Origin: Spirogloea muscicola
Lineage: Eukaryota > Streptophyta > Zygnematophyceae > Spirogloeales > Spirogloeaceae
NCBI GenBank assembly: GCA_009602725.1
Contig: WELB01000003.1
Span: 1,277,500 to 1,325,303, forward strand
Direction: 5' to 3'
DNA: 47,804 nt
The notes under the pieces were generated by a model that was not told the DNA's origin, ran no database searches, and saw only the letters and a list, made by a program, of their open reading frames with translations. The translations under genes and the position numbers were made by a program. Shown here piece by piece: positions 3,079 to 40,180 of the stretch. Within the stretch, counting starts at the first letter, position 1; every line of letters starts with the position of its first letter.

Positions 3079-3207
3079 GGCTTTGGACATTGTCCATTCT
3101 TTTTGGGCTGGCTTTGCCAGCCCCTCTTTCTCTATGGGCGAGCCTTCTTCTTAGAGAAAGAGGCGTCGGCAAAGCCAGCCCAAAAAGAATGGACAATGTC
3201 CAAAGCC
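3079..3207. repeat. Long hairpin 3' of the LINE stop
   Basis: Arms 3079-3133 and 3153-3207 are inverted copies (about 55 bp with few mismatches) separated by 19 bases. Each arm contains the sequence TTGTCCATTC followed by the short hairpin GGGCTGGC-TTT-GCCAGCCC (3105-3123). It lies about 65 bp after the LINE stop codon. Confidence 0.85.
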
Positions 3208-3224
3208 AAAGAAAGAGAAGCCAG

Positions 3225-3580
3225 AGAAGGACTAGATGCAGAACACAAGACGATGCAGAGGGAAGCTCAGTACCCGCGAGTTAGTCAGAGTAGCTCGCTG
3301 CAGGGAAAGAGGCACTGAAAGGTTGTGAAAGGCCAGCCCTTGTCCATTCCTTTTGGGCTGGCTTCTCCCAGCCACCAGTCAATCTGCGCGCTTGCTGCTG
3401 TGAAAGGCCAGCCCAAGAAGAGTTGACAAGGTCCAAAGAGCCGAAAGGCGCCTAAACCACACAGCTATGCACGAGACTACCGCGGATGAGAGCTTAAGAA
3501 CCACGAGGTAGCGGCAGCAAGTCGGAGTAACTCGCGGCTGGGAAAGAAGCACCTCGCCGAGACCCAGAAGCAGCAGCACC
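3225..3580 (-). mobile_element. Inverted copies of the LINE 3' tail
   Basis: Around 3255-3300 the complement of the LINE terminus (TCAGTACCCGCGAGT...) reappears in reverse orientation, so the 3' end of the element at 2980-3020 is mirrored within 300 bp. A second, more diverged reversed tail sits at 3490-3550. Between them are further GGCCAGCCC hairpin copies (3331-3373, 3400-3412). No intact coding is left. Confidence 0.65.
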
Positions 3581-3845
3581 GGACCTTGTCAGCGCTTTTC
3601 GGGCTGGCTTCTCACTCCTGGCTGATGAGTCAGATGACTACCTGGTTCACCATAATAACGAGTTTAACAGCACGACTCCCCAGCCCAAAGTCTTCACCAA
3701 ATATATCTACTGAAAGAAAAGAAGGCGTAGCATTTCGCAAGAATTGGGAGAAGCCAAGCCGAGCCAGTAAGCTGTTTAGGCGGCTTGTTTGCCCAAAGAA
3801 GGGGTGTCCTAGCAAGATGGACTTATTTCATTCTGATGTTATCTT

Positions 3846-3967
3846 AGGTACCTTAGATTAGGTCTCCGTATTATGTAGCATTGTTTAGTCTGCACTCGAC
3901 TCTGCCTGAACAATGTATTGGCTTGAATTGGCCTCCCTTTCAATTCATGCGCCCCGCGCGCCTTCTC
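3846..3967 (+). repeat. Dispersed repeat B, full-length copy
   Basis: This block starts at ACCTTAGATTAGGTCTCCGT and ends at GCGCGCCTTCTCTC. It recurs almost unchanged at 26298-26422 (one difference seen by eye) and more diverged at 11812-11938. Shorter inverted copies lie at 8805-8872, 10729-10802, 12037-12108 and 26483-26546. No coding capacity is visible. It may be a MITE or a 3'-UTR-derived repeat. Confidence 0.8.
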
Positions 3968-5002
3968 TCTGAGATGAGACCGCTGTGCTCCTTTGGTGAC
4001 TCTACCTACGATTGCCACCTACCCTGGATGTGGGCGGAGCCTGTGCTAGTCTGATCTGTGTCTGCCATTATGAGCGGATCTGCGTCTGCACCTCCGCTCC
4101 GAGGCGGGTCTAGTGAGTCTGTAAAGATGGGCAAACGCCCCAGCTGAGAATCTTCAGAAGATTGGGAAGAGGAGGCCGTCAACAACCAGTTAACCACCAT
4201 CAAGAGGTGCGACATTAGGAGTCGCCAGATCGCCAGATCTGAATCTCCAACACCTTGAAGGTGCACCATATTTCTCACACAATCACTTCCATTACATCAG
4301 GTGAAGGCCATCATTAATTAGACATGCGGCCCTCCAAGTGTCATGAATCCATAGTCATGGGCAAGGCCCTGCACTGTCTTTGGCAGATCGTCTATGGCAG
4401 CTTGCATACTGCTAATTCTAAGGATATTGTTGGCAGTGAGGCTACACCAGATCGCAGCCTCACTGTATCAGCACGCAAAGTCACTTGATCAGGCCAGATT
4501 GTTTTGCGAGGAGTCTTGCAGTCTTCTTGTGATATTTTGTCAAGACAGCCACCTCGCTGCAATTCACATCTGCAAGACCTACTCTGACATGTTTGTACTG
4601 GTCAGGGGAGCATAGGCGTAGGAACCAGTTTTGTATAAACAAAAGAGGACCAAGTCTAGGTCCAAAGTAAGAGATGGCTTCTGCAGGATGCCAATAAGAC
4701 AAGCCACTCATTTGCTTCTGAATAAGTGAGCTGTGCCTTCGGCCAGCCCAACGAAGTGCTACTTCTAAGGCGACTGCTAACCTTTGCCAAAAACTGTTTG
4801 CTAGAATTTGAGGAGTATATGCCCTGCCAAGAAAGAATGAATTAATGTTGATGCTATGGGGAGTAAGGGTGAAGCCTGAATCCTCTTGAGCACTATCAAA
4901 ATTGACTGATGTCTAGGCGAGCAGGTTGACCAAGAACATTGGGTTCCTGCCGCTCTGGTGTGCCGTGATATCCTGGTGCTGCGGCCAGCCTCCATTCCGT
5001 GG
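3968..5002. other. Intergenic / probable NDRG 3' UTR, no recognised gene
   Basis: Short reading frames on both strands (for example 4394-4615 + and 4481-4711 -) resemble no family I know and show no exon-like continuation. The segment next to 5003 is probably 3' UTR of the minus-strand NDRG gene. Confidence 0.5.
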
Positions 5003-7575
5003 CTACAAAACGTCTGCCAGCTGCCTATTTACACTGTCCCGTTCCACCTTTGTCTTTATAGGCTTCAACTTGACACCCATGCCCTGGGGTGAGAGTGCCT
5101 CTGAGGAGCACAAAGGAGAGGTTGGTGATCTTGGAGCCCTCCTTAGCTCAAAGAACAAAGCCCGCTGAAAGCCAAGTCGACTCAAAAACCGCTCCATGGC
5201 TCTTTGCATCATATTTGGCCGCTCCTCGGTGACCAATGCACCGCATGTTGGAACCTGGAAGTTAACGAGTCAACATTTCCATGACACTTTAGCGGCATCA
5301 TAATTACTATAACCAACTTTAGCGGCGTCAGTGCAGTGGCAACTTACTACGCAGAAGCAATGACATTCCATACCTGCACAATAGCTACTACATACACACT
5401 GCACACACTGAAAACGGACACAATGAATACAATGAGTCCGATGGAACAATGTAGGTGGCTTGACATTTGCAAGTTAGGTACCTCAATGTATGTCACAGAG
5501 TCCTTGCTCAATTGGGTGATCATGTGCAAGCTTTCTCCAAGAAAGCTGGAATTTTGGCCACTTATGACAAGGGATGGACATTGCAATGTACGCAGATTCT
5601 CTGATATATCTCGTCGCCTGCACATTATGTAGCAATGTCCTGGTCAGCTGCTTCTCAATGAGCAGCAGGAGCAAGGAGGAGAACAAAGAAGCAGCAAATT
5701 GTTGCAATACTTACTGGGCCAAGGCTCGGACGTAGCGTGCGACGTTGTGTGGGTTTCGTCGCTCCAGATCCTGCAAGCAAACAGGTGACTATCAGAGACA
5801 AGCCATGAGATGATTCATTCATATGCATTTGCTGACATGCGTAAAATGCAGTCGCAAGGTGCACAGCGTTGTAGGTGCATACTCACCCTTCTGAATGTGC
5901 GCACTGCTTCAGGAGTGGGACCAGAATTACCATTTTCCTGTATGCAGTGAGTGAGGTCAAAAGTGAGTTTCACCATCGTGAAAGAGTTCTGCCCTTGGAT
6001 GATGTACTTGTCCAGCTTGCAGTTGTAGACTGCTTAAACTGAGGGCAGACAGCAGAGACTCATACGATCAGCACATGACGTATACCTGGCAGAAATAACG
6101 CTGCAGGAGTGTGTCTTTTGCAAATGTTGTCCATCCATAGTAATGAAGAACACTTGCAAGCGCCTGCATGGTGCAAAATTGACAAAGTCAAACACGTGTA
6201 TACTTCAAAAGCAAAGCTACCTCTAGCGAAATGTAAGAACAGTATAATAGGACAGTGAAAAGCAAGGGTAGACTGACAGGCTTCCACTGAAGGCGACATG
6301 CTGATTTGGATTCTATGAGTACCTTTGAGTAGGCCCACTCAGTCCACGTAGGTGCTTGACAGATTGGTGATACAAGAATGAGGCCCAGCACTTTCTCTGG
6401 ATATTGAATCTGTTACCACCAATACCATTTGAACGTTGCATTAGTCTCACAACTTTGGTAATGTCATCCTGTATGCTATCTGCGACTTTCCACGATAATC
6501 TGTAGTGCTCTGAGCTATATGTATTTTTGCAAATGTCCTCCCTGGACATGATAAGTATGACCTGAATTGCTTCAGGAGTGTGAAGCAAAGCACAGCAGTA
6601 AAAGCAAATGGACAGCTTCATCCATAGAAGAGTCAATAAACTCGCATCTTATAGCAATAGGGTCAGCTGCGATTCCATTACCGCATATTGAGTCAGGATG
6701 TAAGCTCCACCAGTCACGCCGAGGCTGACCATTACTTGAATCCTGTTTTAGGCAACATAGACTCAGCATCCAAGAACAAACTAGCTGCCAAGCAGCAGTT
6801 GACTGGCATTCTTCAACTCGATCTCATGGTAATTCTCAGCATCGTACCTGAAGAAGCCGACAATGTCCTTCACTTGACTTACAAGATCGTCCACACTCCA
6901 ATCTGGCCCAGACATGTCTGCAGCATTCGTCTGCAAGGTGCACAAGATCAAGTGTCCTTCAGATGGAGAGCCAAGCATAGCAAGGATAGCACTAGCCTTG
7001 TGACTTTGAGTCAGCCTGCTTGGCAAGATACTGCTGAATCATCCAGAATAAAGCTCTCCATCTGATGTACCTCATGGCCAGGCGAGTCGATATGATAGAT
7101 GCAGAAGTTGTGAAGGAGTAAAGTGGCAATATCAGCACAAAGGAATAGCCCTTGGAAACAGTTCGTATCTGCAGACAGAGTTTCAACAGGTGATCAACAC
7201 TTGATACTGGCAAAGCATGATGATATTAGTCATCGTCATCTGGGAAGGCAATGGAGGGTTTGAAAGCTTACGGTCGAGCCCTATGTCATGGTAAGTGACG
7301 AGTCCTGGCTTCCTGCGATTCCCAACAACCGTCACATTCACGTTTCCAAGCCTGGTCGGTACTACCTCAACTTGAGGCTCCTCCTCTCCACTGCTAGTGT
7401 CATCATAGGAGGAAGCTGAGCTCCAGCTTTCGCTTCGTCCAGAGAGCATGGACAACGGGTACGCCGTGGACGTTGTGATGAGGCCCGGAGGCACAGGGAG
7501 TCGCCTGAGGTCTGGAGGTGACTCCCAAGGGGGCAAGGCCTCGTCTGGACCATCTTCCATAGCCGTCAGCAGCAC
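5003..7575 (-). CDS. NDRG (N-myc downstream-regulated) family protein
   Basis: Ten exons, with the ATG taken at 7560 (an in-frame ATG at 7575 is also possible): 7560-7272, 7168-7032, 6930-6848, 6742-6682, 6409-6323, 6163-6086, 5937-5887, 5770-5715, 5617-5482, 5254-5003. All boundaries are GT-AG, phases close, and the product is about 409 residues (usual 340-390). Family marks in order are [74 protein letters not shown] and [14 protein letters not shown] proteins have an alpha/beta-hydrolase fold thought to be non-enzymatic. The nucleophile-elbow position here reads GVTGGAY with no serine, which agrees. In plants the related NDL proteins bind G-protein beta subunits; that role here is inference. 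The N-terminal ~60 residues, rich in Pro, Ser and acidic residues, are an extension of unknown use. The C-terminal tail after LGFQRALFF is basic and unconserved. Confidence 0.93.
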
Positions 7576-7599
7576 GGCCCTCCAACTCTGGTCAGCTCA

Positions 7600-8590: not shown

Positions 8591-8594
8591 GAAG

Positions 8595-8875
8595 AAGTGG
8601 CATTCCCAATGGGGGCAAGGGCTGCGAAAAGCCAGCCCAAAAAGAATTGACAAGGGTTTTGGAGGGGCCTACAAGCGATTAGCAGCTACAAAGGGGCCGG
8701 AAGATGCTATGTCAGAACAGGGGGAAGGATGGTTCACTCAGTAGGTACGAGTGAGTAGCCTCAGATCCGACAGACTAGTTGCCGGGAAACTATCGGGAAG
8801 AAGAGAGAAGGCGCGCGGGGCGCATGAATTGAAAGGGAGGCCAATTCAAGCCAATACATTGTTCAGGGGAAGAAG
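8595..8875 (-). mobile_element. LINE 3' tail with hairpin and repeat B copy, reversed
   Basis: Read on the minus strand, 8800-8738 gives the LINE ending SDLRLLTRTY-like before a stop, followed by flank that matches 39105-39300 closely. The flank includes the hairpin at 8619-8638 (reverse complement of GGGCTGGC...GCAGCCC). A repeat B copy in reverse orientation occupies 8805-8872. Another reversed hairpin sits at 8909-8928. Confidence 0.7.
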
Positions 8876-8991
8876 AGAAGAAGAGAAGGGGCTCGACCAT
8901 TGAGGATAGGGGCTGGACAAGCCAGCCCAAAAAAAATTTAACAAAGAGCCGCGGATCTCGTCCTCGCTGCCGGTCGCCCGACCTCCACGGC

Positions 8992-10287: not shown

Positions 10288-10535
10288 GAACAGTGTACTG
10301 GCTTGCTTTGGCCTCCCTCTTATTCCATCAGCCAACCTTTCTGCTTCACAGCCTTGCCCTCCTTTTATACCGGGCTGAACTTTCACAGCCATCACCCCCA
10401 TTTTTATTCTCCTTCCTCCAGCATCTTGCGCAGCAGGACGATGCCCGCCGCCAATCGGTAGGGTGCTCACTCGTGGCTACGAAGGAAGAAATGGCTCGCC
10501 CATAGGAAAAGAGGGGCTAGCAAAGCCAGCCCAGA
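10288..10535 (+). mobile_element. LINE tail end and hairpin pieces
   Basis: A weak repeat B core lies at 10288-10330. A terminal LTRGYE-like end lies near 10462-10490 and a reversed hairpin (GGGGCTAGCAAAGCCAGCCC) at 10513-10532. All are decayed. Confidence 0.45.
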
Positions 10536-10728
10536 AACGAAAGCCTACTTTAGCATTGCCCTGCTTTCTTAGCCCAATCTTAGCACAAGGCTTTTGCTTT
10601 ATGTAGTGTCTTTCTTTCTCTGCACTCCCTTTCCTTTGCCATAAGCAGTGTACTGACTCAGCTGACCTCCTCCGCACTTCAAGCGCACAACACGCCTTCT
10701 GCTTGTGGCGAAATCTCCTCCTTTAAAA

Positions 10729-11381: not shown

Positions 11382-11599
11382 AAGGCTCGTGGTGGAAAGA
11401 GGGGCCAGCCAGGTCACGAGAGAATTGTCCGGGGGTTGCAATACAGCGTAATGGCGACAGATCAGGAACCACAGTCGTCCAAGGTGTAAAGAGAAAGTGT
11501 CCTCTCCGGACAACAGCCGCACGAGGTGGCCAACACCGATGAATAAATGTGTCATCTATAAAAGGGCGTAGCGCCCGGGCGCTTTCTCGAGCCCCTTCG

Positions 11600-12160
11600 A
11601 AACTTCGTTCACTCTATTTTTGGGCTGGCCACTCACAGCCATCGCCCACAACTGGAAGCGTCTCTCTCTTCAGCGTTTGTTCGGGCTGGCTTATCACAGC
11701 CCTTGCCCCCAATGGGAGAGCCACTTCTATCTCTGGTCTCTTCTTTTCCTGGTCCCTTTGCCAGCCCCTCTTCTCTCTTCTCTATGGGCGAGCCCTTTCT
11801 TTTTGTCACCTTAGGCACCTTAGTTTTGGTCTCCGTATCATGTAGCCTTGTTTAGTTTGCACTCGACTCTGCCTGTACAAAGTATTGGCTTAAATTGGCC
11901 TCCCTTTCATTCCTTGCGCCCCGCGCGCCTTCTCTCTTTTCCTGATCCCTTCGGACTTTGTCAATTCTTCTTGCTGGGCTGGCCACTCACAGCCATCGCC
12001 CACTACTGGAAGCGACTTCTCTTACATCTTTGGCAGAGAGAAGGCGCGCGGTGCGCATGAAATTGAAAGGGAGGCCAATTCTAGCCTTAACAAATGTCCT
12101 GTAAACTGGGTAATGAGCTGGCTAAGGGGGACTAGAGGCAATGACTATGAGAGGCCAGCC
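11600..12160. repeat. Cluster of hairpin repeats and palindromic repeat B pair
   Basis: Forward hairpins GGGCTGG...CAGCC occur at 11622-11640, 11683-11702 and 11976-11994. Repeat B occurs forward at 11812-11938 and reversed at 12037-12108, forming an imperfect palindrome of about 60-bp arms around a ~100-bp centre that itself contains a hairpin. A reversed hairpin half follows at 12148-12160. Confidence 0.75.
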
Positions 12161-12546: not shown

Positions 12547-12578
<32 letters not shown>

Positions 12579-15211: not shown

Positions 15212-20699
<5,488 letters not shown>

Positions 20700-21068: not shown

Positions 21069-21357
21069 TCTGCGGGGAGGTGCAGCTCGGGCGGCTGCTG
21101 CAGCAAGCTGGGGAGTTGGAAAAGGTCTTGTCCATTCTTCTCAAATTTGTGATTGTTTGGTCTCTACATGTTATGGTTATTCGCGTATTCTAGTGGGGCT
21201 GGCTGTTCACAGCCTCTGCCCGCTTTGGGAGAGCCACTTTCGTGGACGACGCTGGACAAATATGACCGTACAGCAGATTTGTCGGAAAACCACGCTCTGT
21301 GGAAGCCCCCGCCGCGGCACGCGGCGCGGTTGCCGGCGCGCGCGGCGGCGGCGGCGG
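20700..21357. other. GC-rich upstream region of GH47 gene with triplet repeats
   Basis: Long open frames on both strands here are compositional. A (GGC)n tract lies at about 21036-21070, and another begins at 21340 and runs into the gap. A diverged hairpin-family copy (GGGGCTGGCTGTTCACAGCC) is at about 21196-21215. Confidence 0.55.
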
Positions 21358-21838: not shown

Positions 21839-22217
21839 CGCGACGCTCGTCGGGCACGCGGTCGCTCTGGCGGCTCGGAGTAAGGAGCGCAAGTACTCTG
21901 ACCACCCTCCAGGCGATGCCTTCGCGGCACTGGCCATTGACGTACACGGGGCATTTGGCAGTGGCTGGTTGAATCTCCTCCAGCGGCTTGCCCGGGAGGC
22001 CATCGAGCGGCGGCAGGGTTCGCCAGGCTTCAATGCTGCCGGCTCCCTCTCGCAGGTCTTTCGGATGTGGCTGGCGGTCTCGCTGCAGCGCTCTTTGGCT
22101 CATGCGGTCCACGCGCGGGCTGGCCGTGCTATGGCTGCTGCTTCCGGGTCTCGGCAAAGTGCCGCTTCTCCTGCTCCGAGTTACTCTGATCTGCTGTTGC
22201 TCACACGTGGATACTGA
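21839..22217 (+). mobile_element. LINE 3' ORF end, second copy
   Basis: An open frame from the gap to a stop at 22215-22217 reads VGHAVALAARSKERKYSDHP, LAIDVHGAFGSGWL and SDLLLLTRGY, close to 2636-3014 of the first element. The frame is intact over all 126 visible codons. The 3' flank repeats that of the first element (TTTGGCTTTGAACATTGTCC). Confidence 0.9.
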
Positions 22218-22315
22218 GCAGCCATCTGCATCTCCCTCTGCACCATCTTGCACTTTGTAGTGTAGTCCTTTTTCAGCACCTCTTTCTTTGGCTTTGAACA
22301 TTGTCCATTCTTTTT

Positions 22316-22588
22316 GGGTTGGCTTTGCCAGCCCCTCTTCTCAATGGGCGAGCACCTTCTTCTTTCTTCGCCCGTCGCTTCCATGGTGAACCGGTAGACT
22401 TTCCTGCAGCCGGGTCGCTGGCGCAAGTGTATCGCATGCGCTTGGCCGTCTCGCTGCAGAGGTCCATGGCCCGTGCGCTGCACCTTCGTGCTGGACGAGC
22501 CCTTGCTGCTGCCTCTGGCTCTATCCAGGGGACCCACTTCCAGGACCCTAGCCTCTCTGATTTGCGGCTGCTTAGCAGGGGTTACTGA
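22316..22588 (+). mobile_element. LINE 3' tail, SRGY subfamily, preceded by hairpin
   Basis: A hairpin (GGGTTGGCTTTGCCAGCCC) at 22316-22334 is followed directly by the last ~70 codons of a LINE ORF. These read FHGEPVDFPAAGSLAQVYR, ASGSIQGTHFQ and SDLRLLSRGY, with the stop at 22586-22588. It is nearly identical to 26770-26987, so both belong to one recent subfamily distinct from the TRGY copies. Confidence 0.85.
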
Positions 22589-22659: not shown

Positions 22660-23210
22660 CTTCTGGCTGGCTTTGCCAGCCCCTCTTTCTCTATGGGCGA
22701 GCCTTCTATCTTCTCGTTCTTTGTACATTCTTTTTTGGGCTGGCTTGTCCAGCCCCTATCCTCAATGGGCGAGCCCTTTCTTTTCTTAGTGCTTCGCCTT
22801 AGTGCTTCGCCTGGCCCTTCTTCTTGGGCTTCTTGTACTCTGCTCATTCTTTTTTGGGCTGGCTGTTCCAGCCCCTATCCTCAATGGGCGAGCTCTTTCT
22901 TAAAAAGCGCACCCAGTGGCCGCTTGAGTCCCTGTGTGCTTAAGCGCTTTTTCTGGCTCCTTACCTCTGTTGATCACCTGTTTCTGGGCTGGCCAATCAC
23001 AGCCATCGCCCTCTACTGAGGCTTTCAACCGGCCCTTTCAGACCTTGTACAGTCCTTTGGGCTGGCCTTCCACAGCCACTGCCTTATGTTGGAAGAGCTG
23101 TCTCTTTTCCATAGTAAGAAATAGCTCTGTCAAGGTAAGGCAAAGGCTGTGAGAAGATGAAAATGTAAGCTCATTCAAAGGTGGCGAGGGCTGTGAGAGG
23201 CCAGCCCAAA
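22660..23210. repeat. Array of six GGGCTG...CAGCCC hairpin units
   Basis: Forward copies lie at 22665-22683, 22737-22755, 22856-22874, 22986-23004 and 23059-23077, with a reversed one at 23188-23207. The first three are each followed by CCCCT(N)TCTCNATGGGCGAGC. The loop changes (CTTTG, CTTGT, CTGTT, CCAATCA, CCTTCCA) while the outer stem pairs stay complementary. Confidence 0.8.
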
Positions 23211-23708
23211 GTACTGAACAAGGCCCAGAAGACTGCCGTCGCCGCCTCGCCAGTCGTGCCCCTGCATGGTTCGACCCCTGCCGTGGTCTGAAGAGCCCAA
23301 ATTCTTCTGTTGGCAAGACCAGCAGCAGATTCCCGCCTGTCTTCGCCTGCGCGCCGGCTCTTGCAGAGTGCAACTCTGAGAGGCCCAGCCAGGTCACTCT
23401 TTCTGCAACTGAGAGGCGAGCACCCAGTTCCTCCTGTGTCCCGACACAATGTCTCAGTCCTATGGACTGTCACACAGAGAGATCCAAGGGGTTTGCCTTG
23501 AGCCGCGGGCCAGCCAGCGGATGGATTGTCAAAGTCAGTCTAGTCAGAGTCCGACACAGTCTCTGCTGCATTGTGCATCAGTGTGATCAAAGTATCACAA
23601 GCAGACGCAGTGCCTGGTACCACAGGGGCAGGCATGCATGGATGTACAACCATATTTGGTTGCTGAGGAAGAGAGGGCCCTGGTTGTGGCACGTTGAGGA
23701 CAGGCGTC
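23211..23708. other. Intergenic; no recognised gene
   Basis: Probably includes the 3' UTR of the minus-strand GGCT-like gene. Frames at 23310-23758 on the plus strand look like shadows or chance ORFs. Confidence 0.4.
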
Positions 23709-26161: not shown

Positions 26162-26297
26162 AGAGCCAGTAGTATCCTCTCAACGGCAGCTTCGACGCCC
26201 CTGAGCCACGGCAAAGGGCGCGCCGCGCGCCTGCCGGCACAGGGCGCGCGCGGCAGCCGCGGCGGAGGCGGCGTCGGGCGCCCGCTCCCCTTCTTCA

Positions 26298-26546
26298 GAT
26301 ACCTTAGATTAGGTCTCCGTATTATGTAGCATTGTTTAGTCTGCACTCGACTCTGCCTGAACAATGTATTGGCTTGAATTGGCCTCCCTTTCAATTCATG
26401 CGCCCCGCGCGCCTTCTCTCTTCTTCAATGACTCGCAGATGTGCTTTCCGGCTGAGATGCGCTTGCCAGCTGCACATGAGAGAGAAGGCGCGCGGTGCGC
26501 ATGAAATTGAAAGGGAGGCCAATACTAGCCTTCCAAATGTCCTGTT
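26298..26546. repeat. Repeat B palindrome
   Basis: A full forward copy of repeat B (26298-26422, almost identical to 3846-3967) is followed after about 60 bases by a reversed copy of its 3' half (26483-26546). The two could form a hairpin with ~60-bp arms. The right flank (GTAATGAGCTGGC) matches the flank of the similar pair at 12108-12122. Confidence 0.85.
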
Positions 26547-26987: not shown

Positions 26988-27104
26988 GTGTCTCGTAGCA
27001 GCTTTGTTTCTGTTACTTAGCGCTTCCCCTGGCCCCCTTCTCGTACTCTGTTCATTCTTTTTCGGGCTGGTTGTTCCAGCCCCTATTCTCAATGGGCGAG
27101 CACT

Positions 27105-27350
27105 TTCTTCAAAACCACCACCACGGAAGCCACTAGCCTGGGCTAAAGCACGACCAGCACGCTCGGGAATAGCGAGTGCTTGGGAGCGCTGCAGACTCAA
27201 TGATAGCCGCATTCTATAGCATGCCACGATGGCTTGCGGGACGCTAGAATGGCCTAAGCTACCGGCCCGAGTACGTCGGCGGGCATCAACATGCAGTGCC
27301 AGGCGATGGAGGAGGGAAGACCACTTCGTTCTGTAGCCGCCGTACATGTC
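27105..27350 (-). mobile_element. LINE tail, third subfamily, reversed
   Basis: The complement reads AMDMYGGYRTKWSSLLHRLA, SVPQAIVACYRMRLSLSLQR and RAGRALAQASGFRGGG. It aligns with the AIDVHGAFGSRWLDLL to RAGRALAAASG part of the main LINE. The same segment recurs at 30430-30515. Confidence 0.8.
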
Positions 27351-27680: not shown

Positions 27681-28016
27681 GGTTGTGGGAGAGCAACAAG
27701 CTCCAAGGGGCTCCTAGACAAAGCGGCTCTTTGGAGCCCTTATCATACATCTCTGGCTGCATGGGTCCTCGTTTAGATACCCTACTTGAGACATCGCAAG
27801 TCTAGGATATGCACGACGTAAGGATGCGCATCAGCCGAGATGGGCATGCCGGCAGAGTATCTTCTCCTTGCATTTACAGTGTACTTGCTCAGCTTGGCCT
27901 CCCTTCTATCATGCGCACGCGTGCCTATTCATCAGAGAAGCAGCTCCCAAAAGGGGTGCAAGTGCTGTGATAGACTGAGTAGCTCCAAAGTGCTGTGAAA
28001 GGCCAGCCCAAAAAGA
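27681..28016. other. Repeat margin, no recognised gene
   Basis: Contains a weak repeat B relic (27885-27935) and a reversed hairpin copy at 27992-28009 followed by AAAAAGAATGGACATGGTCC, the usual outer flank of the hairpin family. Confidence 0.5.
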
Positions 28017-28906
28017 ATGGACATGGTCCGAAGTGGGCTGGAAAGCGCAGCCACTTGGCAAAGTAAGTGGCCACTACAAATGGCTGTTCGATATTCCCGA
28101 GTCAGCAGCCTTCATTCGCCTGCTATCCAGGTGCAAGTTGCACTGAAGGTGGTTACGAAGAAGCTGCATCAAGTGTCTGCTAGACGCACAGATAGAGCAA
28201 TTGTCAGCTTACCAGCAGATACACAGAGTATTCTGAGGTGCTGTCCAGCTGCTTCTTATGCTTCCTCCTAAGCAGGTGACAGACAGAGAGGGCCAAAGTA
28301 TGACGACGCATGTGAAGCTTCATGGATCTCAGAGATGCTCAAGTACCTGTGCTTCTGCAACAATGATGTCCACAATCTGTGAACAAGTCGAGCCCCACAC
28401 AAGGCAACATCCGCATCCTAAAGTTGCTGAGCTTGCAGGCTGTCTGGTGGGTCCTCAAGGAATGCGAAAAGTGGAGGGCATGGTGGCGGATTCTTTCTTT
28501 AGGCCGTCAAGAAATGTCCGAAATGTATCCTCGTGGACAGCAGGCAGGCAATACTGGGTCGATCTCGATGATAGAGGACAGAGTAAAGATGCTAGATGTG
28601 AAATCAAAGATTGACCGTCATTGGAAAACACCCTACTGAGGTAAGCTTGCAGCTTGCAGGTACTGCACGGGTCTTTTGTCGTTTTGGTGTGCTCATGCTA
28701 GATCAATATCCGAAGCTGCTAAACTGATACGCAGCCATTAAAGCGTTTGCAGTACTAGGTGAGAGGTGCAGCATAGATACCTGCAGCTTTCCTTTACTTA
28801 CTAAGCACAACTAGCAAACCCGAATGCGATGCACAACTAATGCATCCAGCAGGGTGGCAGCCCAGTGCAGGTGGCTCGTAGTGAAGAGACAATGGTTGTG
28901 ACCACT
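28017..28906. other. Unassigned open frames downstream of PLMT
   Basis: Plus-strand frames at 28258-28614 and 28379-28639 are open. One reads AVWWVLKECEKWRAWWRI after an AG that could be a splice acceptor, and ends in KIDRHWKTPY-stop. I recognise no family, and no upstream exons are certain, so this may be chance, a decayed gene or the 3' UTR of PLMT read backwards. Confidence 0.3.
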
Positions 28907-29852
28907 TCAGCTGTACACCTGGGGTGGTTGAGGCTGTGGCTTTGCTCGAGTTTTGACGTCCTCGTGTCGCTCAAGAACAATCATGAAGAGATAGCCTGCC
29001 GCCCAAACGGTGATGAGGGGCCAAGGAGCCCAGCACAGGCAGCCCAGGAGGGTGAGGATGGAGCCGATGTACTGCGGATCTTGAATATAGGTGAAAGGAA
29101 AGTCCACCACCCATGGCACATATTTGCCAAAGCGCACACCGTAGTATACTCCAGATTCCCCTAGCAGCTGATAGACTCTGGCAGACCACCCAAGCAATGA
29201 CAGCGTCAGTGGAATGAATGCACCCATGGCCCGCGTGTGTACAATGCAACTAAAATTTTTCGGTGTTTGTCGAGTCAAAGAGGTCATCCATGATAGGTAC
29301 ATTGCGCAGACGCTTTGAAAGTGCTCTTGGCAGCAACTATTGAGATGGCAGTAGACCGCTTGACTGAGCAAAACGTCACTGCTAAAACCCTGTCCAGGCA
29401 ACTGATGACATGTCTTCAGCCCCCTCTGCTAAGCGAGGGAGTAGCACAATGACCTCAGAGCAGAGGTGGACAGTAGTACACAACTTGTCAGCAAGTTGCA
29501 GCAGCCTGGTCAAAGTGCACCTCGCAGGGGCCCTGAGCCCGTGTTACCTGATATTAAGGGCTTGACCGGCGGCAATAGCGAGGACGCAATACCAAGGGGG
29601 CCACCGCAGCGTCGACTGGCTCAGTACTGCGGCAGCCTGCACGAGCTTGAGGACGTGCGCAGTGCGGGCCATGGTCCGGCAGGGGTCCGCCCCGCGACAC
29701 CAGGCAACCCACCGGCGGGGGTGCGTCCACAGGTACCAGTAGAAGCAGAAGGGCAGAGCGACCGCCAGGCAGAGCAGCGCCTGGGTGACAGCCGCGAGCT
29801 CCATCTCCAGGACATTGTACGCGCGCCACAGGAGCTCCGTCGCCTCCACCAT
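28907..29852 (-). CDS. PLMT: Phosphatidyl-N-methylethanolamine N-methyltransferase (PLMT/PEMT type)
   Basis: Two exons, 29852-29548 and 29177-28907, joined through a split Arg codon, give 191 residues. The enzyme completes methylation of phosphatidylethanolamine derivatives to phosphatidylcholine in the ER membrane using S-adenosylmethionine. The C-terminal half is diagnostic: YQLLGESGVYYGVRFGKYVP, then IQDPQYIGSILTLLGCLCW, then YLFMIVLERHED. DPQY and the E/H-E-D end are the family's SAM- and lipid-site motifs. Hydrophobic segments fit a small polytopic membrane protein: AVTQALLCLAVALPFCFYWY, a stretch near WYCVLAIAAG, SILTLLGCLCW and LITVWAAGYLFMIV. The ATG at 29852 is preceded by GC-rich sequence. 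The product is slightly longer than plant relatives (~165). Confidence 0.93.
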
Positions 29853-30430
29853 GTTAGCTACTGGTATGCAGCGCCAGTGGCGGCAGGAGTGGCGGTAGCG
29901 GCAGTCGACTTGCAGCTCAGCCGAAGCTCTGTCACGGGAACCTCGCTGAACTGTCGACCAGAGAGCTCAGGACCGCACCACAGCAGCGTCACGAGCGCAG
30001 CCTTGCAGGGCTCGGCGGACCATTGCGGCGTGGCGCGCGACGAGGGATGGCGGCTGAGAGCCGCTCAAGCTGTCGCCGGCAGCTGAGGTGCCATGACCAG
30101 GCCGCCCCAGCCAACGCGCCGGTAGCCGTCGTGCAGAGGGATGACACTGCGGCCCCAATTCCAGGGGCCGCTTTCCGCCAGGCCCGCCTTGGCGTTCCCC
30201 GCTGGCCTTTCCGCCCTCCCGCCTGGCGCCGCGACGGCGGCGGCGGCGGCGAAGGCGGCGGCGGCAGCGGCGGCGGCGGCGTCGGGCCTCCTTGCCACGC
30301 GGCGGAGTGCAGAATTGGGCTAACCTACGCAGCCCCTGTTGCGTAGGCTAAACCCTAAACCCTAAACTCCTAAACTCAAAACCCGAAACCCTAAGAGCGA
30401 GCAATCCTCTGTTGCGCCCTGGCCCTGCGC
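29853..30430. repeat. GC-rich PLMT upstream region, (GGC)n tract and telomere-like repeats
   Basis: A (GGC)n-rich tract spans about 30236-30285. At 30349-30395 there are degenerate CCCTAAA units (TAAACCCTAAACCCTAAACT followed by variants), the plant/algal TTTAGGG telomere type in an interstitial position. No gene is seen here besides the promoter region expected for PLMT. Confidence 0.7.
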
Positions 30431-30515: not shown

Positions 30516-31084
30516 TATAAAAACTGTTAGGTATAGAAATGGGCGTTCTGTTCAGGTCGGCCATCGGGCTTGGCCGTTCTCGCTTTATGGAGAGCTCACT
30601 GCCATCGAAGCCATCGCCCCTTTACGGGAAGGGTCATTCTCTCCCACATTCACTGCACTAGCTTTTGGCCTGGCCTATATTGGCTGGCTTTTGCCCTCCC
30701 TTTCAGTCAGGAAGGAAACAAGAAGAAACGGCTCTTCCAAAATTGACAGCAAGGAAACAGCTCTTCCAATGCAACTGCTGCTCAGGGACACTAAGCTCCC
30801 CTTTGCAGTAGTCTCTTGCATAGCTGTCTGGTTATGGGGCCTTTCGGCCCTTTGGACCTTGTCCATTCTTCTGGGCTGGCCAATCACAGCCCCCCCCAGA
30901 GGTCAGCCCAAACAGCTCTTCCAATGAAGGCAATGGCTGTGAGAGGCCAGCCCAAAGCAATGTACAAGGCCTGAAAGGGCCGGACGGCGCAATACAACAC
31001 GATAAGCCATGCGCGCCCCGCACATTATCCCATATTTGAGCTTGGGCTTCCCCATAGCCGTCCAGTCTTCTGGGTTAGGCCTGG
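30516..31084. repeat. Hairpin repeats (forward and reversed)
   Basis: A forward hairpin at 30873-30892 (GGGCTGGCCAATCACAGCCC) and a reversed one at 30935-30953 form a close inverted pair. Flanks carry TTGTCCATTCT and its complement. Nothing else is recognised. Confidence 0.65.
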
Positions 31085-31330
31085 CCACCGGCCACCTGTT
31101 GGAAGTGCATGGCCCCTTCAGGCCACTGGCTTCCGTGGCAGCGCTCCGGCTCCTCAAATCAGCCAGTCGGATTTGTATATGCTCACCCGTGGGTACCAAC
31201 GTCAACTTTCCTTCAGCCACCTGAGCATAGGGCTTCGTTTTGTGTTGCCCCACTCTTTTGCACTAGCTTTTGCCTGAACAATGTAATGGCTTGAATTTGC
31301 CACTTTCATATATGAGCACCGCGCGCCTTC
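31085..31330 (+). mobile_element. LINE tail remnant and diverged repeat B
   Basis: 31085-31200 ends in a decayed QSDLYMLTRGY-like terminus. 31262-31330 holds the repeat B core (CCTGAACAATGTAATGGCTTG, ending CGCGCGCCTTCTTG). Confidence 0.6.
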
Positions 31331-31344
31331 TTGTTAGCATCCAT

Positions 31345-31738
31345 TGGTCCAGCATCGACGCACATCGCTGGCCACGCAGTGGGCAGTGCAGAACAAAGAA
31401 AGCTGCAGCACTATTCCGATTACCCCCAATGCGATCAGCCAGCGGCAGTCGACATCTTTGGCTGTTTAGGTCATCGTCTCCACCCTCTCCTTCAGAATAT
31501 TGCATATCTAGGCTACACACGACATGCAGATGTGTTCCCGGCTGAGATGGGCTTGCCAGCTGCATATCTGTCGTTCTTGCGACGGCGAATTTCGGCCTGT
31601 TTGCAGCGTGCTCAGGCTAATGCTTTGCACAAGAAAGCTGGGCAAGCTCTAGTTGGTGGCAGAAGGGCCTCATATCTGCCATCTAGTATTCAGGCATCAA
31701 TTAGCAACCTTTATGTTTTTGACCCGTGGTTTCTGAGC
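31345..31738 (+). mobile_element. LINE C-terminal fragment, fourth subfamily
   Basis: An open frame reads AGHAVGSAEQRKLQHYSDYP, FLRRRISACLQRAQANALHK and ASISNLYVFDPWF. It is equivalent to AGHAVGLAARAKERKYADHP through the terminus of the main LINE. The TRGY end is altered. The flank to about 31860 is shared with 27540-27680 and, reversed, with 38830-38925. Confidence 0.8.
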
Positions 31739-31935
31739 TGGTCAATCTGCTGTAATTTATGTAGGTCTTCAGATGTGCTTGCCTTTTGGCCTTGTGGTAC
31801 TTGGCCATTTGGCCTTCGTTTGTTTCAAATACACGAAACATTTTCATTGGCCACTTGAGTCGCTGTGTGCTTGGGCGCGTTTTCTGGCCCCTTCCAACTA
31901 TATTCATTCTTTTTCCAGGGCGGCCAATCACAGCT

Positions 31936-32259
31936 ATCAGGTAATAGAGTTTGAACTAAGTGATAGAGGGCCTGAGTGGCCAAGTACGAAGGCAAGCACA
32001 TTAACAGATGTACATCACCTGCTGCTAAGCTGACCTCTTCTGAGGTAAATGGCAATATTTCTTCTCTTCACAAGTACATTTTCTCCAAACCCGAGCCATC
32101 AGGTAACAGAGTTTCTACTAAGTGATGGAGGGCCTGAGTGGCCAAGTACGAAGGTAAGCACATTGACAGATGTACATCACCTGCTGCTAAGCTGACCTCT
32201 ACTGAGCTAAATGGCAAGATTTCTCCTCTTTTCGAAGTGCATTTTCTCGAAACCCCACA
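31936..32259. repeat. 162-bp tandem duplication
   Basis: Units 31936-32097 and 32098-32259 begin ATCAGGTAA and share GGCCTGAGTGGCCAAGTACG and the following sequence with about 10% differences. The unit contains reversed LINE 3'-flank sequence (compare 38865-38920). It ends about 125 bp before the quinone oxidoreductase start codon and may overlap its promoter. Confidence 0.85.
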
Positions 32260-35397: not shown

Positions 35398-35785
35398 GCT
35401 TATTTCCTTCATTGGGAGAGACACTTCTGTTGTCGCTTTTTTGGTTGCCTAGGCTGGGCAAGGGCCAAGCAGCTGGGCGCCACTTGTGACGGCTCCACCC
35501 GACGTGTGGGCCCCGCCTTCCGGCGCCCCCGGGAACCCCGTCGGCGCGTCACGCCCAGAGACGAGCTGCAGCCCCCGCCTTCCGCGCTCCCGCCGCCGCC
35601 GCCGCCACCGCCGCCGCGCCTCCCGCCGCGTGCCGCTGCGGATCACGCGCCTTGGGGCTCGCGCGACGGCGCCTCTACTTTAGCGAGAGCGGCAGCGCAA
35701 CCCCTCGCCCGTCGCCCAGCACCATCTCCGTGCAGCCGTTGGCGCCTCCTACGGCAGCAGCGCAGGAGCTCCCGGCGCGGCCGCC

Positions 35786-36565
35786 ATGGGCAAGGGGGCC
35801 GACAGGTCAGCGCAGCGACGAGCACAGTAGCTCGGAGGCTCCCCAACGAACGCACCGTGTTGGTCGTTAGAGATTCGCGTCCATGCCGCAGCTAGTGATG
35901 ACCGTTACTGCGATCTGATCGTGGAACTCAACTAGGCGTTGAGCGCTGTGGGAGGCTCCAGCGCAACGGCACCAAGCAGCGGCTGCCGTGTCGTGGCAGG
36001 GACGGCGCCGTGACCGTGTGCGGAGTGCTCCTCGCCATCCTCCTGCCGCCGCTGGGAGTCTTCGTGAAGGTCAGCGCACTCTGCTCTGGTCCTGCTGCAG
36101 TAGGCTCCCGATGGTTGGGCTCACAATCGAGAGGCAGCAGGGTGCTCATAGATGGCATGCAGCGGGTGCCTGCCAGCTGATCGTGCGTGAGCGAATGGCA
36201 AACAGGCTTAACGCCGTGCTGCTAGAGCAGTCTGAGGGCCGGCATGCATGCGCTCTTGTATCTGAGAAGCCAGCCTCTGAGCATGCCGGCGACTCCTTCA
36301 AGGTGGCGCGCGCGTTGCTGTGTCAGGAAAATTGTACGCGCGTCTTCGTCGCGCGTCTTATTAGGCGTCTTATCATGTCCGTCGCTTTTAATGCTTGTGT
36401 GCATGCAAGCCTCTGTTGACCTGATGGTCAACAGTTTGTATGTGCATGTCCCGCTTCTGGAGGTAGCGTGAGTGCCACATCGAGTTCTGGATATGCGTGC
36501 TGCTGACCATCCTAGGATACATTCCTGGAATCATATATGCCCTTTACGTGTTGATGAAATACTAA
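35786..36565 (+). CDS. PMP3/RCI2 (UPF0057) small plasma-membrane proteolipid
   Basis: Three exons, 35786-35805, 36000-36069 and 36473-36565, give 60 residues; the first exon is only 20 nt. The family is two membrane helices joined by a short loop. The first helix is GVLLAILLPPLGVFVK with the conserved LLPPLGVF, and the second is FWICVLLTILGYIPGIIYAL with CHIEFWICVLLT before it. Yeast Pmp3 and plant RCI2 proteins influence plasma-membrane potential and salt/cold tolerance; that role here is inferred from family. The start MGKGADR is followed by a charged residue before helix 1. The 5' region is GC-rich with GCC triplets (35587-35640). Confidence 0.93.
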
Positions 36566-36589
36566 GGGTTCTTTGCTTCCCAAGACACT

Positions 36590-37200
36590 GTAGCGAGGGA
36601 GTCAGCAATACTACCTGCAGCAGACAATATGAGGGCTTCTGTAGCCTCTGTTGGCACATACACACTGTGATCAGCCTCAGATCCCTTACTTGGCTCAGTA
36701 GAAAAGTATCAAGCTGTGCATACCAAGCCCTGGGAGCCTGTTTAATACCATGTAGTGCTTTCTTGAGCTTGCCCACCTTCATTTTCTTTGCCTGTCACTT
36801 CAAAATCTGCAGGTTGCTGCATGTAGATGTCCTCCTCTGAGTCTCCAATCAGAAAAGCTGTAGTTGACCTTTAACTGTACACAGTGCTCGGGAGCAGTGT
36901 CGCAGACAGCTCTTAGGGAGTACTCCGTAATACGCTTTTGTGTTGCACATTGTGACAGAAATAGTGATACTAGACACACTAGCTTGAAAACCTTGTGAGT
37001 ATGATAGTGCTGCATAAGCTAGAATTGCCTGCGATATGGAAGGGCATGGAATCAGCTAAAGTTCTGTTGGGGCTGCGTACTAAGAAGGCAGCATACCATA
37101 AGAATAAATCGGCAACTCGCAGATGATGCAGCTTGCATATTCCAAGCATGGATCTCACTGCATAGCTCGATACATGATTTGTAGCGTCTAACTTGGTAAC
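36590..37200 (-). mobile_element. Decayed Ty1/copia retrotransposon fragment (integrase end to reverse transcriptase)
   Basis: The complement reads an integrase-end segment near 37160-37040 (RSMLG..KLHH, AAFLVRSPNRTLADSMPF). Later come EEDIYMQQPADFEV in a shifted frame (36845-36805) and KLKKALHGIKQAPRAWYAQL (36773-36714), the hallmark of copia-type RT. Stops and frameshifts separate the pieces, and no LTR is visible. It begins within ~25 bp of the PMP3 stop codon, on the opposite strand. Confidence 0.82.
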
Positions 37201-37750
37201 ATGCAACTGTGATTTACGGCTGGCCTGTTTGGATAAGCAGCTGCATGGTAGAGCAGACAACTTGCAAGCCACCCTGCTGTGCTACAGATGCGGCAGTCGC
37301 AGATGCAGCAATGGGATGGGCACATATGACCAGCCAGTGAGACAAATGTCGAGACTTAAGCTGGGCTCCTTGGCGAGCTCCAATACGAACAGACCACCTT
37401 ATTTTTAGCCTGTGGCCCTCTGGCAGCTGCTCCCTCTGTTCAATTGTGTAAGCTCGACTGGCATTCGTGGCCGCTCCTTCAATCAGCAGTCATACTCCTC
37501 ACAGATACAACTCACTACAACATAAATTGGGGATTGCTATTCCACTTTAGCTGTCCCTGTGACTTCAGCTTCACAAGTCGACCGTGGGTCAAGGCCTCCG
37601 TGCTCCTTAGTCTTTGTGTGGTTCTTCTTCAGACTACCTACACAAAAATGTGTTGGCCCAAAAAAATGTTGGCTTTTTACAGCCACCAGAATTGTCATGA
37701 AGCTGCTATGCTCCTGTGATCTAAAATATTTGTCATTTTCTAAGTCTATG
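37201..37750. other. No recognised gene
   Basis: Possibly further decayed copia sequence. A hairpin-like relic (GTTGGCTTTTTACAGCCACCAG) lies at 37669-37690. Confidence 0.35.
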
Positions 37751-37975
37751 CTCCCAGGCGCTCGCGATACCAGCGTGCTGGGTGTGCATTAGGCCAGGCT
37801 AATGGCTTCCGTGGTGGTGGTCTGGCTCCTCAGCTTAGCTTGTCAGATATATATGTGCTCACTCGAGGAATTTAGTGCCCCCCTTAGCCAACTCATTTCC
37901 CCGTTACCAGGACATGTGCAAGGCAAGAATCGGCCTCTCTCTCAATTTCATGCGCACCGCACGCCTTCTCTCTAA
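37751..37975 (+). mobile_element. LINE tail remnant and diverged repeat B
   Basis: 37755-37876 decodes to GQANGFRGGG and LSLSDIYVLTRG before a stop, the third-subfamily ending. 37915-37975 contains the repeat B 3' half (CTCTCAATTTCATGCGCACC, then CGCACGCCTTCTCTC). Confidence 0.7.
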
Positions 37976-38540
37976 GAAAAAATATTTCTCACCAGTGATT
38001 TATGCAATTTATTCAGCAGGGGAAGTGGCATCGAAAAGTGCCAGTGGGCCAATAGCCCCTTTGATCTCTGTACTACCAGACTGCTTAGTACTGCTGGTTC
38101 CATTAGTTGGCCATATCAAGAAAGGGCTGGAACCAAAGAGACGGATATCTGGCAAGAAAGGACCAGAGAGATTGCAACTGATAGAGTGTTAGAGGCAAGC
38201 AAGCAAGTGAGAAGAACAAACCAGGAAAACGCTAGACAGGTTCATAGAGCAAGCAGCACGTGAGAAATTAGTTGGGAATCTCACACAGTATGACTTTGTC
38301 ACCCTATATGTCCAGTTTGGAGCACAAGTCGGTATTGGAGAAAAGCAGCACAGCGACATCGCGTCTAGTGGAATAAAGCAGACTGTTACCGGACCTGCCC
38401 CCTCAGCTACCTCTGCCATCTCCTCCGACCTTGCAGAGCACTAAATATGACATTATTCAGGTTTTCCAAGCCTGAGTTGGTGGGTCTCCTTCATGTCCTC
38501 ACCAAAGGCCGGTGCCTGGCTAGCGATCCAACTCCCACAA
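37976..38540. other. Unassigned sequence
   Basis: A plus-strand stretch near 38270-38443 decodes to NLTQYDFVTLYVQFGAQVGI and on to a stop after SDLAEH. I do not recognise it and saw no partner exons. Confidence 0.3.
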
Positions 38541-38544
38541 TATC

Positions 38545-38790
38545 AATAAGGACGTGGTAACAACTGCCACTATCAACCCAACCAACCTAAGTACGTTGGC
38601 AGGGTACGCAGTGCACGCGGTCAACAAGCGGCCCGCGTCAACGAACAGAAATTGCTTACCACACCGCCAAAGATGGGTTTGTTGCGCTGGCCATTGACGT
38701 ACACGGGCCGTCTGAGACATGATCAGACATTCTACAAGGGCTTGCCTTGCATGCGATCACCCGATGCCAAGGAGTGAAGCTTCTTCAACC
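38545..38790 (+). mobile_element. LINE C-terminal fragment, frameshifted
   Basis: Reads KDVVTTATINPTN, LAGYAVHAVNKR, then in another frame DGFVALAIDVHG and LQGLALHAITR. This matches ADVVTTDS...AGHAVGLAARAKERKY...ALAIDVHGAF...LLQRLARHAI of the main LINE. Confidence 0.75.
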
Positions 38791-38829
38791 GAAGGAAGTG
38801 AGCTCGTCCAGAAAGAAAGAAAGGACGCT

Positions 38830-39105
38830 AAGAAAAGACTTTCGTGTATTTGAAACAAACGAAGCCAAGTGGCCAAGTACAAAGGCAAGCACATCTAGAG
38901 ACGCACATCACCTACAGCAGATTGACCCGCTCAGTAACCACGCGTCAAACCATAAAGGTCGCTAATCGATGCCTGAACACTAGATGGCAGATACGAAGCC
39001 CTTCTACCATCAACCATTCTTTTTGGGCTGGCTTTTCGCAGCCCTTGCCCCCATTGGGAGTGCCCCTTCTTCTCTTAACTAGAGCTTGCCCAGCTTTCTG
39101 GTGCA
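38830..39105 (-). mobile_element. LINE tail, fourth subfamily, reversed, split by a hairpin unit
   Basis: 38830-39012 is the reverse of the 31660-31855 region (3' flank and SDLYGLTRGY-like end). 39074-39105 continues the same LINE (complement of CACCAGAAAGCTGGGCAAGC). A hairpin unit lies between the two parts. Confidence 0.75.
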
Positions 39106-39164
39106 AAGAAGAAGTGGCACTCCCAATGGGGGCAAGGGCTGCGAAAAGCCAGGCCAAAAAGACT
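39016..39164. repeat. Inverted pair of hairpin units
   Basis: Arms 39016-39073 and 39107-39164 are near-perfect inverted copies, each with GGGCTGGCTTTTCGCAGCCC and CTTGCCCCCATTGGGAGTGC. The 33-base centre is LINE sequence. The right arm and its flank match 8600-8800. Confidence 0.88.
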
Positions 39165-39540
39165 TCACAAAGGTTCAAAGGGGCCTAAGAGCGGTGAGCA
39201 GCTACAAAGGGGCCTGAGGATGCAATGGTAAAACAGGGGGAGGATGGATCACTCAATAAGTACGAGTGAGGAGCCTCAGATCCGACAGACTAGCTGCCGG
39301 GAAGCTATCACCCTGACGAAAGCCAGAGCCCGCAGCGAGAGCACGGCCAGCTCGCAGATGCAGAGCGTGGGCCATGGACCGCTGCAGGGATACAGAGAGG
39401 CGCATCCGATATACCTGAGCCCACGAGCCCGCGGCGTTGAAGTCGGCTGGCTCGCCGCGTCTGCGGGACACAGCCCGCCGCGCAAGCCTAGCCNCTGCTA
39501 AGCAGCCGCATAAGCTGTGTGGTTCGGGCCCTTCACTCTT
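39165..39540 (-). mobile_element. LINE 3' tail with flank, reversed
   Basis: The complement of 39495-39253 reads GEPADFNAAGSWAQVYRMRL, LHLRAGRALAAGSGFRQG and SDLRLLTRTY before its stop. The flank to 39165 matches 8640-8740. A lone N at 39494 marks the junction with a second short tail (GCTAAGCAGCCGCA). Confidence 0.82.
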
Positions 39541-40180
39541 CCAATGTAAGAAAGAAAGAGAAGTGGCTCTTCCCTCTCTGGCCGCGCTTCTCTTCACTAT
39601 GGGCGAGCACTTGCTCTCTGCCAAGAAGAAGGGCTCGCCCATTGAGAATATGGGCTGGAACAGCCAGCCCAAAAAAGAATGAACACAGTACAAGAAGAGG
39701 GGGGGGGAAGGGCTGCCTCTGCCAAGGGCTGTGAAAAGAAGAAAGTGCTCGTGTGTGAAAACTGTGAAAAGCCAGACCTAAGAACATGAACAAGGTCATT
39801 GTGCGGAAGAGGGGGCTGTGAAAATGAAAGAGATACGCCGAACAAGAAGGGCAGGCGATTGCAGTGCAACTAGTATCTTGCTTTTTGCGCCATCGGGCCC
39901 CTTCAGACCTTGTGAGCCCTCTCACAGCCACCAGTAAAATGTTGGAAGCGGCTGTTTCTAGTGCAAGCGGGAAGCGAATTTGTGAGACCTTCGGGTCCCC
40001 CATCCGCCCGCCCCGGCCTGATCCGCAATTCTGCCCGCCAATCGCGTGCCGCCAGGTGCAGCCTGGGGCCCCCTTCTGTGCTGCCAAGTGTAGCCGCCCG
40101 GACGCCCACTTATCCCGACACCCCCCGGACTGCCAAAAACCTTCCACCTCTCCTCCTGCCGCCGCCGCCGACGCCCCGCC
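39541..40180. repeat. Hairpin copies and upstream region of the lumen-protein gene
   Basis: A reversed hairpin at 39652-39670 (GGGCTGGAACAGCCAGCCC) is followed by AAAAAAGAATGAACA, the usual outer flank. From 39950 the sequence is GC-rich and probably holds the promoter and 5' UTR of the next gene. Confidence 0.6.

Follow-up and report, generated by a model that had tools for sequence, protein, structure and literature searches.

LINE A and the recurring tail of the window

The window, meaning the whole 47,804-nt stretch of Spirogloea muscicola DNA analysed here (assembly GCA_009602725.1, contig WELB01000003.1, positions 1,277,500 to 1,325,303, forward strand), opens with the 3′ part of a long interspersed nuclear element (LINE), a retrotransposon of the type lacking long terminal repeats (non-LTR), and carries many copies of the short hairpin GGGCTG-loop-CAGCCC that lies in the 3′ untranslated region (UTR) of this element. 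The hairpin is very probably the core of a 3′-terminal recognition tail that belongs to one group of LINEs (group I) and would be bound by the reverse transcriptase of the same elements. The coding region of the first element, LINE A, occupies positions 1..3014 of the plus strand, with its 5′ part lost beyond the start of the window and two overlapping open reading frames (1-1095 and 1071-3014). A reverse transcriptase is followed by a C-terminal region with C-x-C...H-x3-C and R-V-D-x14-D motifs, recognized by eye, and the protein ends in ...LLTRGY-stop. The 3′ UTR (3015..3152, plus strand) consists of a subfamily-specific stretch and then a conserved tail of ~75 nt that ends at about GGGCGAGCCTTCTTC(TT); 30 of the 42 best genome matches cover window positions 3040 to ~3150-3154 at 99-100% and end there. 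Within this tail, the hairpin (3105..3123) has an 8-bp stem, GGGCTGGC/GCCAGCCC, and a 3-nt loop.

An earlier note on this DNA had listed 21 copies of the hairpin, and the recurrence is confirmed. Eleven of these copies have the exact stem, and the other ten depart from it at a single position (CAGCCA at 3355, 11622, 11976, 22986, and 23059; GGGTTG at 22316; the others at 22665, 27992, 30935, and 39136); the copy given as 8909 starts at 8910, and seven of the 21 are antisense, on the minus strand (8619, 8909, 23188, 27992, 30935, 39136, and 39652). Counted over the window, there are 11 exact GGGCTG-loop-CAGCCC sequences with loops of 3-30 nt. A stricter count limited to loops of 3-12 nt leaves 10, whereas 60 dinucleotide-preserving shuffles average 0.15 and never exceed 2. 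When one stem mismatch is allowed and both strands are read, the count is 67, with the palindromic stem counted on both strands, against 8.2 ± 3.6 in the shuffles (maximum 18). Alignment of the copies places the stem in the middle of a longer directional element, approximately GGCCCCTTCGGACCTTGTCCATTCTTTTT-GGGCTGG-loop-CAGCC-linker-CTTC. All 21 listed coordinates fall within matches to a profile of this tail, and so within one ~75-nt element, an agreement that is partly circular because the profile was made from 18 window copies. Eight more profile matches were absent from the earlier list, of which three are weak (E 3.5e-4 to 0.006). A search of the window against Rfam at the gathering threshold gave no match.

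The tails fall into seven subfamily types, named by eye, and 94 of 208 copies collected match no subfamily pattern. In the window, they were located by the profile and, unless noted otherwise, assigned by subfamily pattern. An older subfamily-A tail lies inverted at 3152..3233 (minus strand; profile match 3169-3202) with its 3′ end toward LINE A, followed by a truncated subfamily-F tail (3336..3375, plus; assigned by eye) and a facing tail on the opposite strand (3397..3436, minus). Three minus-strand tails come next, of subfamily C (8594..8657), subfamily B (8885..8948), and, by eye, an A-like type that the earlier list lacked (10488..10542). On the plus strand, a D tail (11599..11664) is followed after 11 nt by a C tail (11676..11727), then by a second D tail (11951..12018) and by another previously unlisted tail (21176..21239). 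The 3′ part of a further group I LINE (21840..22359, plus; open reading frames and profile) has its coding end at 22217 and its tail at 22294-22359. Beyond it stand, on the plus strand, an A tail truncated at the hairpin (22665..22705, by eye), two B tails (22715..22780 and 22835..22899), a D tail (22971..23021), and an E tail (23038..23104), and on the minus strand an E-like tail (23169..23225, by eye). A B tail at 27041..27107 (plus) lies behind a LINE coding end, identified in a coding-end search. Two tails are without their 3′ part (27992..28031, minus; 30852..30893, plus), the second of which is faced by an E tail (30911..30974, minus). Finally, two C tails face each other (39004..39069, plus; 39111..39177, minus), the latter behind a LINE coding end at ~39256, and a B tail is located at 39629..39691 (minus).

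The earlier statement that many copies follow a LINE stop codon applies to the smaller part of them. In the window, a LINE coding end lies at most 160 nt upstream of 7 of the 25 tails, and two of these seven have one coding end in common. The genome as a whole (153 Mb, 471 contigs) was sampled as twenty 10-kb stretches at fixed positions (L031-L050), of which 47.7 of 200 kb (~24%) reads N. For the window and sample together, 23 of 92 tails have such a coding end, including one (L036) that is an internal coding piece entered by a tail, and the remaining 69 are short or have decayed 5′ parts. At E ≤0.01, the sample contains 86 tail matches and the window 29. The 67 hairpin-covering tails (E ≤1e-4) found in 152.3 kb correspond, by rough extrapolation, to ~67,000 copies in the genome, and the pattern CTTTTTGGGCTGGN{3,8}CAGCC has 2,636 exact genome matches, compared with 0 for the reversed control.

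Position, ends and conservation of the tail

The link between the hairpin and LINE 3′ ends proposed in the earlier note is strongly supported by LINEs picked by their protein and by a preferred 3′ boundary between copies. A protein search, in which 68 of 17,719 candidates were scored, returned 73 match rows; from these, 20 LINEs were chosen that reach the C-terminus, share 66-98% protein identity with LINE A, and had a 3′ sequence not previously fetched. In all 20, the hairpin lies 64-100 nt past the stop codon. The stop-to-hairpin distance, proposed earlier as a check, shows little spread inside a subfamily: 90 nt in the two copies nearest LINE A, 97-100 nt in six more A-like copies, 81 nt in L069, 97 nt in C, 76 nt in B, and 64-78 nt in F.

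To compare the ends of copies, 208 of them, including loci fetched by likeness to the LINE A tail, were aligned all against all. Among the 3,141 pairs with at least 85% identity, the match breaks off 44-51 nt downstream of the hairpin start in 1,518 and extends beyond in 183. The 5′ ends of this similarity are scattered from 0 to −600 nt, that is, the copies are 5′ truncated. A sharp 3′ end together with scattered 5′ ends is the pattern that target-primed reverse transcription should leave when it starts at a fixed 3′ terminus. The copies finish in CTTCTTC, CTTTCTTC or GCGCTT and then diverge, and do not depend on a terminal poly(A); CTTCTTC or CTTTCTTC is the pyrimidine-rich 3′ end in subfamilies A, B, and C. 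Nested insertions were also found, with eight rows of LINE A-like matches corresponding to seven distinct interrupted places (L006 and L022 being the same). At three of the seven, overlaps of 6-10 bp are apparent target-site duplications, although their true lengths may be below the BLAST overlaps. Two of these insertions consist of the tail only: a C tail of 81 nt, which interrupts a LINE A frame, and an F tail of 96 nt, which interrupts the frame of another LINE. The third is a B copy of 206 nt that entered the 3′ UTR of a LINE A.

Conservation is localized to the tail. For nine of the 20 protein-picked copies, taken as representatives (27 between-group pairs), identity between subfamilies is near random in the part of the 3′ UTR that precedes the tail (0.52; shuffled 0.49), and amounts to 0.74 at −30..−1 (shuffled 0.60), 0.81 in the hairpin (shuffled 0.60), and 0.64 at +20..+45, the 26 nt after the hairpin (shuffled 0.57). 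In 67 copies, departures from the subfamily consensus affect 22 of 893 stem sites and 108 of 840 sites in the loop and linker, which makes the stem ~5 times less variable. These copies, for which loci L002-L030 were fetched by tail match, were anchored independently of the hairpin and kept if they matched at ≥70% over the upstream 22 nt. Since decay after insertion should strike stem and loop alike, the excess of loop changes should be older and stem from the evolution of the source elements.

When 12 tails were folded, the hairpin was part of the minimum-energy fold in 11, and the fold energy had a z score of −2 or lower in seven; in a separate set of six window tails, z ranges from −0.18 to −3.86. 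RNAalifold, applied to two alignments (A1 and A2), recovers the inner stem and, within the linker, another stem of 3 bp. Double changes are seen at one pair of this linker stem in A2 (6 sequences) and at none in A1, and the linker stem was set aside. An outer stem of the GTCCAT/ATGGGC type was dropped as a general feature, as the minimum-energy fold contains it in only 5 of the 12 tails.

A probable recognition tail and its alternatives

The suggestion in the earlier note that the hairpin is recognized by the reverse transcriptase is supported as to its position at LINE 3′ ends; the recognition itself is proposed from the anatomy of the tail and from the precedent given in PMC4176376. Once transcribed as part of the element, the tail, which extends from ~−30 to +46 relative to the hairpin, would fold into a stem-loop, which in some subfamilies would be closed by the outer stem. 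The element's own reverse transcriptase would bind this stem-loop before first-strand synthesis, and synthesis would then start at the fixed pyrimidine-rich 3′ end on the nicked target. Synthesis would often end early and leave very many tail-only copies, which would explain why the hairpin recurs far from LINE genes. The stem would be kept because the protein must recognize it, and the loop and flanks would drift from subfamily to subfamily. In this scheme, the folding of the RNA in the cell, its binding by the protein, and the specificity of the loop are what we infer.

Several results weigh against such a tail. Similarity is lost before +44 in 1,440 of the 3,141 copy pairs, and four of the seven nested places (162-429 nt, several compound) overlap by only −3 to 4 bp. 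Subfamily A (9 copies) reverses the distribution of changes, with departures at 8 of 143 stem sites and 2 of 88 sites in the loop and linker. The fold energy is unremarkable in 5 of the 12 tails (z above −2), RNAalifold shows no double change in the inner stem in either alignment, and the stem can be read as sequence instead of structure. Likewise, the covariation check that the earlier note had called for returned no pair beyond a phylogeny-preserving null (best pair E = 2.65). This R-scape-like test applied a G-statistic with average product correction, with Fitch-parsimony changes re-scattered on a FastTree tree, to 85 sequences, 89 columns, and 60 null alignments; 56 of 141 non-redundant copies were dropped as truncated or diverged. 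Because the stem is almost invariant and the power of the test is low there, this null result is weak evidence against a fold. The selection on an RNA fold proposed in the note is less well supported than the link to LINE 3′ ends: the kept stem, the varying loops, and the localized conservation speak for it, and covariation does not.

The same almost invariant stem sequence, devoid of covariation, would also be seen if the tail were conserved as primary sequence, either as a protein-binding RNA or DNA motif or as a 3′-end-processing signal, with the hairpin being incidental to a short palindromic site. This explanation survives best among the alternatives and is nonetheless improbable, as both arms are kept while the loop differs in length and sequence, and as a wobble-compatible GGGTTGG is present in three of the protein-picked LINEs (L054, L055, and L057). 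Far less probable is that the short copies form a separate, non-autonomous family resembling short interspersed nuclear elements (SINEs) that borrows the LINE tail. Such a family would account for the 69 of 92 sampled tails, or about three quarters, that are without a LINE coding end within 160 nt, and for the existence of insertion units of 81 and 96 nt. However, its members should not have 5′ ends that are scattered instead of fixed, and ARAGORN detects no tRNA gene in the window. A SINE head was considered in one recurrent upstream sequence found at 7 places, checked outside any systematic search, and is unsupported, since this sequence reads as LINE 3′ UTR. A DNA element (a miniature inverted-repeat transposable element or palindromic repeat) spread independently of LINEs would match the palindromic arms and the inverted pairs of the window, but it is contradicted by the set place of the hairpin in 20 of 20 protein-picked LINEs and by the one sharp and one scattered end, and can be dismissed.

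Possible self-nesting, other LINE groups and known systems

In addition to serving as an RNA priming signal, the recognition tail may, as DNA, be a preferred landing site, such that LINEs pile onto their own 3′ ends, in tandem or 3′-to-3′, as self-nesting clusters; this second role is put forward tentatively and is itself rather doubtful. Among 103 tails, 30 gaps are shorter than 100 nt, compared with a mean of 11.6 under a ±2 kb local shuffle (maximum 21 of 500) and of 15.3 under a ±1 kb shuffle (maximum 27). The 30 close pairs comprise 14 in ++ and 4 in −− orientation, 11 with 3′ ends facing, and 1 with 5′ ends facing. Two inverted pairs of the window have facing 3′ ends, at 3053-3233 (arms 82 nt, gap 17) and 39018-39162 (arms 66, gap 13). 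The sequence flanking an insertion resembles the tail profile at 5 of the 18 loci chosen through the LINE A tail and at 4 of the 20 protein-picked loci, against 101 of 3,000 random 60-mers (p = 0.0003 and p = 0.004, respectively); 12 of 30 loci were omitted from the first set as the inverted half of the query could bias them. Compared with a same-locus control (42 of 365), the 5 of 18 do not differ at 0.05 (p = 0.056) and are suggestive only. A landing preference is not separated here from a general preference for LINE-rich regions. Genome-wide, head-to-head pairs occur at 42 places and tandem pairs at 348, counts that by themselves carry no weight as a test. If the preference is real, the LINE uses its own dead copies as targets.

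As for the kind of LINE, LINE A has homologues throughout the genome, many of which keep an open frame of 1,000-1,520 amino acids, and RVT_1 matches both LINE A frames below the Pfam cut-off (E 6.5e-4 and 2.5e-5). A genome search with PF03372 (Exo_endo_phos) produced 27 candidates and 10 matches, none at the listed LINE places, although a very diverged domain could escape and the LINE was not read at its N-terminal end. The C-x-C...H-x3-C and R-V-D-x14-D pattern of the C-terminus, seen by eye in alignment A3, presumably resembles the restriction-like endonuclease of R2-type LINEs, a likeness unconfirmed by sequence search: the C-terminus had no PDB or Pfam match and no match to any solved R2 protein.

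A second LINE group, ~40% identical in its C-terminal protein, is very abundant (window 31316-31858; L007:2284-3120). A first look gave 14,936 candidates, 139 of which were scored, with many equal-score rows and several open frames of 1,267-1,350 amino acids. The idea that this group shares the GGGCTG hairpin was rejected, as the 3′ ends examined have another tail in common, with a GGCC-ATTT-GGCC-like hairpin (GGCCATTTGGCC-like) and ACACG(AAA), identified by eye; a typed composite of this tail has a fold z of −2.54. Some second-group ends do have a GGGCTG tail downstream, for instance 108-177 nt past the end in L046 (50.3 bits) and at 239-305 in L007 (41.5 bits), and because the distance varies, these are read as separate insertions. 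A third tail-like repeat (TGCCTGAACAATGTATTGGCTTGAATTGGCCTCCC...GCGCGCC) is present at 3846-3970, 11813-11937, and 26297-26421, with the copies 90-99% identical; this repeat is apparently the tail of a third LINE type. The GGGCTG hairpin thus seems to be the mark of one group, which is what would follow if every LINE protein recognized the tail of its own RNA.

Elsewhere in the window, interstitial repeats of CTAAACC, which we take to be the plant-type telomere sequence, occupy 30348-30394 (82% matches), and a 162-bp unit is present in two tandem copies at 31932-32255 (90% matches). At 44161-44325, the window carries an exon for ribosomal protein uL11 of the plastid type (E 4.3e-25 to chloroplastic L11, the best match being presumably the spinach protein), which points to a host that probably has plastids, presumably a green alga. 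Positions 28907-29428 (minus strand) match a phospholipid methyltransferase family (PF04191, E 1.4e-7, above the cut-off). A run of 90 A at 47707-47796 may represent a poly(A) tail, or else may have arisen in assembly.

UnaL2 and ZfL2 are LINEs of the L2 clade, which have an apurinic-type endonuclease domain before the reverse transcriptase. Unlike in these elements, no Exo_endo_phos match coincides with the LINEs described here. In PMC4176376, the 3′ stem-loop of such stringent LINEs is described as essential, with the stem recognized generally and the loop specifically. UnaL2 of eel and ZfL2-1 and ZfL2-2 of zebrafish have a 3′-terminal stem-loop that divides, like the one in S. muscicola, into a constant stem and a variable loop. 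A constant stem with a variable loop is what this stem-general, loop-specific model predicts. The ends themselves differ, as UnaL2 terminates in TGTAA repeats according to PMC3747384, whereas the 3′ end here is CTTC-like.

The same paper describes green-algal LINE/SINE pairs, several of which have non-poly(A) tails. Among them, the RandI/Dualen LINEs carry 3′ repeats other than poly(A), the partner element SINEX-2 finishes in (CTTT)n, and short elements have a LINE 3′ tail in common with the LINEs; unlike SINEX, the short copies in S. muscicola look like truncated LINEs that have no head of their own. A lineage of land-plant L1 elements, also covered there, has a conserved 3′-end stem-loop, from which recognition by the reverse transcriptase is deduced. 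In that lineage, variation falls on the stem-forming bases, and certain loop and flank positions are conserved (PMC3747384), the opposite of what is observed here. Nesting of algal LINEs in one another, parallel to that in S. muscicola, is reported for Zepp of Chlorella and Coccomyxa and ZeppL of Chlamydomonas in PMC3446292 and PMC8226300. Zepp, as described there, forms one cluster per chromosome, probably at the centromere, and ends in poly(A), whereas the copies here are spread over the sampled contigs and have a CTTC-like end. For R2 LINEs, the 3′ UTR is required (R2Bm and R2Dm, also in PMC4176376); unlike R2, the 3′ flanks here have no target consensus save a leading T (21 of 28, subfamily A), which is possibly the element's own.

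In the open-access literature searched, the tail is not described in titles or opening lines, and the finding agrees with the stringent pattern known for LINE 3′ tails, in which a constant stem carries a subfamily-specific loop. Several subfamilies that have one stem and different loops, and that live beside other LINE groups with other tails, constitute a natural experiment on the choice of RNA by a LINE protein. Matching protein changes to loop changes across these subfamilies could test the stem-general, loop-specific model proposed for UnaL2 and ZfL2.

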